This document shows, one piece after another, positions 3,278 through 7,366 of a stretch of DNA of 35,417 bases (positions are counted from its first letter, which is position 1; each line of letters starts with the position of its first letter). The notes below the pieces were generated by a model. It was not told where the DNA came from and made no database searches. It saw nothing but the letters and a program-made list of their open reading frames with translations. The stretch covers positions 1 through 35,417 of the forward strand of contig JAGLSU010000038.1 of assembly GCA_023135935.1 (NCBI GenBank), given 5' to 3'. Position numbers and translations under genes: made by a program. This DNA is from Planctomycetota bacterium (GTDB lineage Bacteria; Planctomycetota; Phycisphaerae; Sedimentisphaerales; Anaerobacaceae).

Positions 3278-3352
3278 TTTTGTGCTTTGGTAATTAGTAT
3301 TTGTTTAGAATTTAGGGTTTAGCATTTAGAGTTTCAGAACTACTCGCAACCC
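3278..3352. repeat. 75-bp dispersed direct repeat, copy 1
   Basis: ttttgtgctttggtaattagtatttgtttagaatttagggtttagcatttagagtttcagaactactcgcaaccc; differs from 5866-5940 at 3 positions. Confidence 0.9.
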
Positions 3353-3380
3353 GCAACTCGCAACCCGTAACCCGCAACCC
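3346..3380. repeat. Heptanucleotide tandem repeat (GCAACCC)x5, degenerate
   Basis: GCAACCC GCAACTC GCAACCC GTAACCC GCAACCC read directly. Confidence 0.9.
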
Positions 3381-3387
3381 GTTCCCC

Positions 3388-5865: not shown

Positions 5866-5940
5866 TTTTGTGCTTTGGTAATTAGTATTTGTTTAGAATT
5901 TAGAGTTTAGCATTTAGAGTTTCAGAACTCCCCGCAACCC
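5866..5940. repeat. 75-bp dispersed direct repeat, copy 2
   Basis: ttttgtgctttggtaattagtatttgtttagaatttagagtttagcatttagagtttcagaactccccgcaaccc; offset 2588 bp from copy 1, 72/75 identical. Confidence 0.9.
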
Positions 5941-5946
5941 GAACCA

Positions 5947-6342
5947 CTAATTACCAAACTCCATTGTTTTCTTAACATCATCACTTACCGAATTATGTAT
6001 CGGGCAATTTCCCGCTGCCTTACGCAATATCTCCATCTGCTCATCACTATATTTTTTCGGAAAAACTATCGTAGTATCAATTCCTCCCACCATCGGCTTA
6101 TCACGCATCACGAACTTCAGCGACACTTTCACTTCCGTCCCCGTAATATCGAATCCGTTTTTCTGCGCTGCCGCGTCCATCGTCATAGCCACACAACTGG
6201 CATACGAAGCGCCGAACAAATCCTTCGGACTAAAATTCTCACTGCTGCATTTCGGCGAGTCTATTACGATACTATTTTTACCTTCAATCTTCGCCTCCGC
6301 ATGCATCCCGCCTTTGTAACTAAGTACTAACTCGTCCGCCAT
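5947..6342 (-). CDS. OsmC family protein
   Basis: MADELVLSYKGGMHAEAKIEGKNSIVIDSPKCSSENFSPKDLFGASYASCVAMTMDAAAQKNGFDITGTEVKVSLKF...NCPIHNSV has the two conserved Cys contexts of OsmC/Ohr. Internal Met at 6342 is the likely start (the ORF track extends to 6387). Confidence 0.93.
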   Translation of the reverse strand: MADELVLSYKGGMHAEAKIEGKNSIVIDSPKCSSENFSPKDLFGASYASCVAMTMDAAAQKNGFDITGTEVKVSLKFVMRDKPMVGGIDTTIVFPKKYSDEQMEILRKAAGNCPIHNSVSDDVKKTMEFGN

Positions 6343-6433
6343 TTCATTTACCCTTTCTTTTTCTAAATTTTTTCTACTGCTTCCCATTTGAATTTTACGT
6401 TTCGAATCATTCGCGCAAGTACCTTTTTAAAAA

Positions 6434-6522
6434 CTACCCCAAGGCGCCCGAAAGTGACCGCGTTTTGACCTTTTTTAACCCTAAATTGACCGAAAGCGCC
6501 CGCATTTTGACCGACTTTGACC
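6434..6522. promoter_or_regulatory. Phased hexamer array (TTGACC-like boxes at alternating 10/11-bp spacing)
   Basis: Hexamers at 6434 ctaccc, 6444 gcgccc, 6454 gtgacc, 6465 ttgacc, 6475 ttaacc, 6486 ttgacc, 6496 gcgccc, 6507 ttgacc, 6517 ttgacc; spacings 10,10,11,10,11,10,11,10. Lies upstream of osmC (-). Confidence 0.6.
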
Positions 6523-6611
6523 GCACTTTTTCTAAAACTTGCGCGTTTTGTCTTACCTATCTTAATATTCCGGCGTCTATCCTGAACACTGAATGTTATT
6601 TTTAGTCTTTA

Positions 6612-6652: not shown

Positions 6653-7366
6653 TTAACTTTTTCGCTTTTTCCCCACTTCAACTCGACGCAAATACAACGG
6701 CTGCAAACTCAACGCGTCTTCGAATTCACCCCGCTGAGCCTTCTCCCAACCCAATAAATGCACATTTTTCGCACTCGGCCACCAATATTTCTCATCAAAA
6801 AACCCTATCCCCTCACATTTGAAATCCTTCTTATAATAAACCAATCCCTCACCTAACAGCTTTATATGCCGTTCCTTACAACCGAACCTCTCAACAAATT
6901 CAGCACTGTTCATCAAGCAGTCATCTAAAATTTTCACCAATTTCCCATCTCTATTTTCATACACTGCCGTAAAAAACTGACTCCGCTTCGCATCCAAAAT
7001 CACCCCTATCAGCTCAGCATCACCGTTTTCACCACCAAAACCATTGATATTTGCTGCTACAACATCCAGACTATCAACCGCCACTATCTTGCAATCACCC
7101 GCCAGCGACATAATTTTTCCCATAGTTACAGCTATTCGCAATCCCGTAAAACTTCCAGGACCAACCGAAACATAAACTTGTTTGACCTGCTCTGCTTTGT
7201 ATCCGAATTGACAAAGCAGCTCATTCGCAGCAGGAAAAATCTCCGCACTATGCCGCAATTTCCCCGAAAATAGCCTTTCAGTGAGGATTTTTGCACCCTC
7301 AGCCACAGCCACAGAACCAGTTCGGCCGGACGTTTCTACTGCCAATATCAATGTTTTTTCACTCAT
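6653..7366 (-). CDS. tsaB: tRNA threonylcarbamoyladenosine biosynthesis protein TsaB
   Basis: LAVETSGRTGSVAVAEG, VSVGPGSFTGLRIAVTMGK, VDSLDVVAAN, ILDAKRSQFFTAVY are TsaB signatures. Confidence 0.95.
   Translation of the reverse strand: MSEKTLILAVETSGRTGSVAVAEGAKILTERLFSGKLRHSAEIFPAANELLCQFGYKAEQVKQVYVSVGPGSFTGLRIAVTMGKIMSLAGDCKIVAVDSLDVVAANINGFGGENGDAELIGVILDAKRSQFFTAVYENRDGKLVKILDDCLMNSAEFVERFGCKERHIKLLGEGLVYYKKDFKCEGIGFFDEKYWWPSAKNVHLLGWEKAQRGEFEDALSLQPLYLRRVEVGKKRKS

Follow-up and report, generated by a model that had tools for sequence, protein, structure and literature searches.

A dispersed intergenic repeat of planctomycete genomes with inverted ends and a helically phased interior

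Introduction

BOX elements of Streptococcus pneumoniae have the layout boxA-boxBn-boxC, in which fixed ends enclose a variable number of internal units. In integron attC and Xer (pdif) modules, the site is linked to one gene and the neighbor on the other side is variable. Binding motifs of DNA gyrase are periodic in their arms only, around a non-periodic center of ~36 bp. The E. coli gyrase motif spans 130 bp and shows a phased 10-bp variation in G/C content, which was read as bendability (PMC6379681). For the BrickBuilt repeat of Porphyromonas gingivalis, tetranucleotide target duplications and empty sites have been documented (PMC4596501).

Most bacterial repeats are recognised through the conservation of their sequence. 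Here we describe an element that resembles known modular intergenic repeats in its build, and in which features of shape persist instead. It was found in a contig of a Planctomycetota bacterium (JAGLSU010000038.1, assembly GCA_023135935.1), the whole 35,417-nt stretch of which is called the window. Our literature searches yielded no report of this element, and no described family in Rfam or in the phage and plasmid collections matches it.

Results

A phased array of hexamers within a larger element

A preliminary description of this DNA had listed nine hexamers, and direct reading of the window finds all nine, starting at 6434, 6444, 6454, 6465, 6475, 6486, 6496, 6507 and 6517 (Table 1). No genuine ORF covers the array region, as had also been stated. 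Autocorrelation of positions 6428-6530 gives peaks at lags 10/11 (0.48/0.47), 21 (0.49) and 42 (0.59) over a background of ~0.2, and none of 500 shuffles reaches the A/T spectral power at 10.5 bp observed across the element. Both measures uphold the 10.5-bp phasing, and with it the proposal that the boxes lie on the same face of the helix. At the level of the boxes, a chain of eight hexamers at 10/11 spacing with at most two mismatches is matched in 3 of 300 dinucleotide shuffles, and a chain of four with at most one mismatch in 7 of 300; because some shuffles equal the array, this evidence by itself is only moderate. That modest significance and the presence of other short tandem repeats in the nearby intergenic DNA would suit a chance pattern in low-complexity sequence. 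We give this explanation a negligible probability, as it is refuted by the spectral test and by dispersed homologous copies, which retain the ends and the lengths in the same and in other genera.

Table 1. Coordinates of the element and its neighboring genes in the window
Feature	Position	Strand	Basis or remark
Helically phased array of nine hexamers	6434..6522	(-)	Minus-strand units GGTCAA / GGGCGC / GGTCAC / GGGTAG
Element core, GCGCAAG to CTTGCGC, 132 bp, holding the nine hexamers	6413..6544	(-)	One of 28 aligned copies
Right end motif TTCGAATCATTCGCGCAAG, in inverse orientation to the left end	6401..6419	(+)	Alignment of copies
Left end TTAAGATAGGTAAGACAAAAC/GCGCAAG	6538..6565	(-)	GCGCAAG itself at 6538-6544
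tsaB, conserved gene facing the left end of the element	6653..7366	(-)	TIGR03725 above cut-off
OsmC/Ohr-family gene on the variable right side	5947..6387	(-)	PF02566 above cut-off; likely start 6342 or 6387

The nine boxes are part of a larger element bounded by inverted end motifs, and what the array represents is the inside of a single copy of a non-coding repeat, dispersed between genes in a few related Phycisphaerae-type planctomycete MAGs. In the aligned copies, the left end reads TTCGMAYCARWTGCGCAAG and is followed by T-rich DNA, after which comes an array of 10-11-bp units (CGGTCAAA, GGGGCAAAAT, CGGGCGCTTT, GGGGTAATTTA and others); the right end, TACCCC-CTTGCGCGAAYTGTTCGAA, is an imperfect inverse of the left one. 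The inverted ends measure 19-21 bp in most copies, with TTCGMAYCAAAYGCGCAAG at the left and its imperfect inverse at the right, and GCGCAAG at the left end is common to all copies. Each interior unit of ~10.5 bp has an A/T-rich half and a G/C-rich half, which thus alternate once per helical turn. The total length is ~130-170 bp, and the element as a whole is not a palindrome. The G-phased lead-in that precedes GCGCAAG recurs in other copies of the same genome and takes a longer form in two related species, G015 and G048.

Several features of the surroundings were also seen. Elsewhere in the window, intergenic 7/14-bp tandem repeats (GTTTAGAATTTAGA, CGCAACC) occupy 3303-3381 and 5891-5927, and short tandem repeats seem to be abundant between the genes of this genome. 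A second repeat module, GCGCAAGGGGCGCGTTG-TTTTAAA-CAACG..GTTAAKATRGGYAAGACA-, which also has a GCGCAAG end, abuts or precedes several copies (L058:1959-2024, L100:7092, L113:19756 and L110:19076). A hairpin starts at the right end motif in L018, L025, L034, L124 and several copies of G048 and G015; its stems differ between copies, and the arms (7-12 bp) match within each copy. Perfect stems in the right flank average 2.8, compared to 0.6 in shuffles. We rejected the hairpin as a general feature, as only part of the copies carry it and the signal is partly due to shared flanking repeats. At L015, a stretch that looks like the 3' portion of a gene for tRNA-Met (CATAACCCGGAGGTCGCAGGTTCGAATC) adjoins the element in the left flank; ARAGORN calls no tRNA in it.

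Copies in the same genome differ in length by helical turns

The genome that contains the window (G000) is a 1.93-Mb planctomycete MAG of 158 contigs, which is 84% complete. Searching it with the minus strand of the array region revealed 20 other places at E < 1e-9, with identities of 69-87% over 55-154 bp, and ~22 copies were recovered. All analysed copies are intergenic and occur in both orientations, independent of the direction of the neighboring genes. Their core lengths from GCGCAAG to CTTGCGC fall into classes of 110-111, 120, 130-132 and 150-151 bp, in steps of about one helical turn, compared to 120-123 and 132-134 bp in G015 and 131-132 bp in G048. The clustering of core lengths at 10.5 bp is strong over all copies (R = 0.91) and over distinct lengths (R = 0.84). 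The A/T power at 10.5 bp exceeds that of all 500 shuffles in 25 of the 28 aligned copies; the signal is not clear in the divergent copies L142 and L176. The gain or loss of 10.5-bp units could suffice to quantise the lengths, and thus yield the phase, within one genome; the relatives are therefore the better test.

Three other readings of the element were set aside. The G-tracts that might suggest a G-quadruplex are specific to G000 and absent from the G015 and G048 interiors. As for a structured RNA, the whole window has no Rfam match at the gathering threshold. Against a phage or plasmid origin, none of 50,697 phage or 72,556 plasmid records contains similar DNA, and the single end-motif match in a viral contig sits in unrelated coding-like sequence.

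Ends and helical phase are conserved between species, interior sequences are not

Among 85,462 species genomes, an exact search with TTCGNAYCAAAYGCGCAAGTT hit 18 stretches, every one of them in a Planctomycetota MAG. The nearest relatives compared belong to other genera, G015 and G048 being two species of a second genus in the same family. A strict end pattern matched 19 times in G000 and twice in G048, with no match for the reversed-pattern control. A relaxed pattern that demands both ends around a free interior gave 13 matches in G000, nine in G015 and seven in G048 among 398 genomes of the class; beyond these three species it gave two single matches, and the reversed-pattern controls were nearly empty. 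Single pattern matches in G120 and G348, outside the family, and in G096, inside it, were treated as chance. By BLAST with species consensus sequences, G048 has 24 such places and G015 has 27.

Between the congeneric G048 and G015, essentially the ends alone align and the interiors are unrelated; nor do the interiors of G000 and G048 align. Within a species, by contrast, the interiors of the better G048 and G015 copies are 83-97% similar. G000 and G048 have almost the same A/T phase, counted from the left end, over most of the element (128-161 and 115-149 degrees, respectively), and the periodicity keeps its full amplitude through the middle in both; in G015 the phase differs (~40-115 degrees) and is weaker. 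In other genera the units are non-identical and the phase is nonetheless kept. The GGTCAA box (TTGACC on the other strand) occurs zero to four times per copy in G000 and is present in one of the 15 relatives' copies examined, being absent from the other 14. Hence the helical phase is conserved between species and the TTGACC box is not, which tells against the earlier notion of a regulator that recognises TTGACC. The 21-bp periodicity of the earlier description is real. A simple decaying tandem repeat would not account for a phase that outlives a complete turnover of sequence between species.

The inverted ends, the 22-27 intergenic places per genome and the species-specific interior similarity could also mark a MITE-like non-autonomous element with an interior minisatellite, in which a transposase would act on the inverted ends and the phasing and length steps would be by-products of a 10.5/21-bp repeat homogenised within each species. 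In CSMAG_1306, the left-end motif stands in tandem at 21-bp steps, and the best precedent is BrickBuilt, a MITE with 23-nt tandem repeats (PMC4596501). However, across 39 copies no target-site duplication of k = 4-8 rises above random pairing, no autonomous copy was seen, and a search for the Y1/RAYT transposase family (PF01797) found none in G000. The end motifs were found solely around these elements or at class-b sites, the transposase search being limited to the Y1 family. The phase kept by non-identical units in other genera, too, runs counter to a by-product of homogenisation. We regard this explanation as possible but rather unlikely, and the gene context described below bears on it further. 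A REP/RAYT system was rejected, since Y1 (TnpA-REP) is absent from the 84%-complete genome and the element is not palindromic.

Other Planctomycetota MAGs carry the 21-mer TTCGCATCAAACGCGCAAGTT in a different context that is itself conserved, ACTTANCC..(about 25)..AATTTTCGCATCAAACGCGCAAGTTNCTCCAATTNTAGAGG (L161, L164, L168, L169, L173, L174, L175 and L177; weaker in L162 and L172). At L168, L173 and L174 the 21-mer precedes a portal-like gene by no more than ~200 bp, with ordinary chromosomal genes alongside, and at L173 and L174 capsid-like genes follow the portal-like gene.

Strong curvature is predicted for the element

We computed the curvature of 39 copies from four genomes by a wedge model with assumed wedge angles; the values are computed predictions. 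The predicted end-to-end ratio is 0.16-0.80, compared to 0.89-0.95 in shuffles, and the predicted bend is ~90-178 degrees, up to almost a U shape. Phase, total length in helical steps and predicted strong curvature are kept despite the complete change of interior sequence. A protein may sense the bend or phase instead of the box sequence, in line with the nucleoid-type protein that the preliminary description had offered as an option.

One possibility is that the element is bound by, or wrapped around, a nucleoid protein or one that acts on topology (DNA gyrase, an HU/IHF-like or an SMC-type protein) and forms a topological boundary between transcription units, comparable to the BIMEs of E. 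coli. The 131-132-bp length and the 10-bp phased G/C content resemble the 130-bp gyrase motif of E. coli (PMC6379681), and the copies are intergenic, with orientations independent of gene direction. Yet the gyrase motif has a non-periodic center, whereas the A/T periodicity of G000 and G048 is continuous through the middle, which led us to reject a strong gyrase site. Cores of 110 and 150 bp also occur, and the inverted, sequence-specific ends and the synteny break described below would be left unexplained. A topology site is accordingly an unlikely reading.

The left end faces conserved genes and the right side borders variable DNA

In the window, the left end of the element faces tsaB and the right side an OsmC/Ohr-family gene, whose protein matches two NCBIfam subfamily models below their cut-offs. 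In G048, too, an element oriented in this way follows the tsaB orthologue, and the right-hand neighbor of that element is a DNA-methylase-like (methyltransferase-like) gene. The OsmC family (PF02566) is found in 34 of 89 genomes of the planctomycete family and is absent from G015 and G048; a search with the OsmC protein across other species gave no match. The element therefore belongs with tsaB and not with osmC, contrary to the association first proposed. A cooperative array of TTGACC operators for a transcription factor controlling osmC, suggested by four exact boxes just upstream of the OsmC-family gene, becomes very improbable and is largely refuted: elements stand beside many unrelated genes in both orientations, the boxes vary within the genome and are almost absent in relatives even as the spacing is conserved, and the neighbor conserved across genera is tsaB.

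When loci were paired across species by their flanking genes, 11 pairs were left-left and none was right-right. Among the left-anchored genes are tsaB, larE, lpxB, miaB, a gene for a menA-like prenyltransferase and, in three species, ftsW/SEDS. On the left side, 25 of 33 gene adjacencies (76%) are conserved. On the right, no orthologue is shared over 20 kb in four of five G048-G015 pairs, and in the fifth synteny resumes after 2.6-4.6 kb. If the 76% conservation applied, five right-side breaks out of five would have a chance of ~0.0008; the sample is small, the synteny data comprising five same-genus pairs and eight distinct gene loci, and some flanks carry other repeats. The element thus has its left end beside a conserved gene, whereas the DNA adjoining its right side varies from species to species and constitutes a synteny break. 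At loci such as tsaB, ftsW, lpxB and miaB, different species have the element in the same place and direction, which would not be expected of recently spread copies of a MITE-like element; anchoring by the left end only would also be unexplained by random insertion.

In addition, we observed short conserved gene blocks, one example comprising two genes of 202 and 343 aa, that have elements on both sides whose left ends point towards the block (L271, L277 and also L110:16336-18989); the arrangement resembles a bracketed cassette.

Discussion

In the reading we tentatively favor, the element is pre-bent and a protein draws its two ends together into a loop, making it a boundary or attachment site between core and variable DNA. 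DNA shape would be the property under selection. A protein or protein pair would bind the two inverted ends, which are candidate protein sites, and the pre-bent interior, ~12.5 turns long in the common class, would let these ends meet in a small loop. The core could then lengthen or shorten only by full helical turns, since any other change would rotate the ends away from each other's face. The asymmetric setting, with a core gene on the left and variable DNA on the right, suggests that the complex probably acts at the core/variable junction in recombination, in attachment or as a boundary rather than as an operator of a neighboring gene. No recombinase or transposase partner of the element was found. 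A more specific and quite doubtful version would make the element a chromosomal attachment site of a new class, pre-bent and of fixed phase, whose left end keeps the core gene while foreign or rearranged DNA joins at the right; if true, it would represent a gene-acquisition port selected for its shape and not its sequence.

The interior sequence turns over between congeneric species while the phase, the length in helical steps and the predicted curvature persist, and the element therefore allows selection for DNA shape to be studied in a natural experiment. Because it is placed asymmetrically where core and variable DNA meet, a role in genome plasticity can be tested directly. Repeat finders based on sequence would miss the element from one species to the next.

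Compared to integron attC and pdif modules, the likeness is one of arrangement only: the anchored genes here belong to the core genome, and we recognised neither an attC nor a dif consensus. Similar to BIME/REP sequences, which are intergenic repeats bound by gyrase (PMC6379681), the element is dispersed between genes; it differs in that REP palindromes and a RAYT transposase are absent and the periodicity is unbroken at the center. BOX elements are likewise modular intergenic repeats with fixed ends and a varying number of internal units, but each of their units far exceeds a helical turn in length, and no sequence relation was seen. BrickBuilt is similar in having ~19 copies between the genes of each genome, short inverted ends in a leader and a tail, an internal array of direct repeats with a variable number of units and locations shared between strains (PMC4596501). 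However, its units are 23 nt long and its ends are short (12-nt) and IS5-like, whereas the units here are ~10.5 bp and often non-identical. The planctomycete element further differs from BrickBuilt in that no target duplication was seen, the phase is conserved without the sequence, and one end is anchored to conserved genes.
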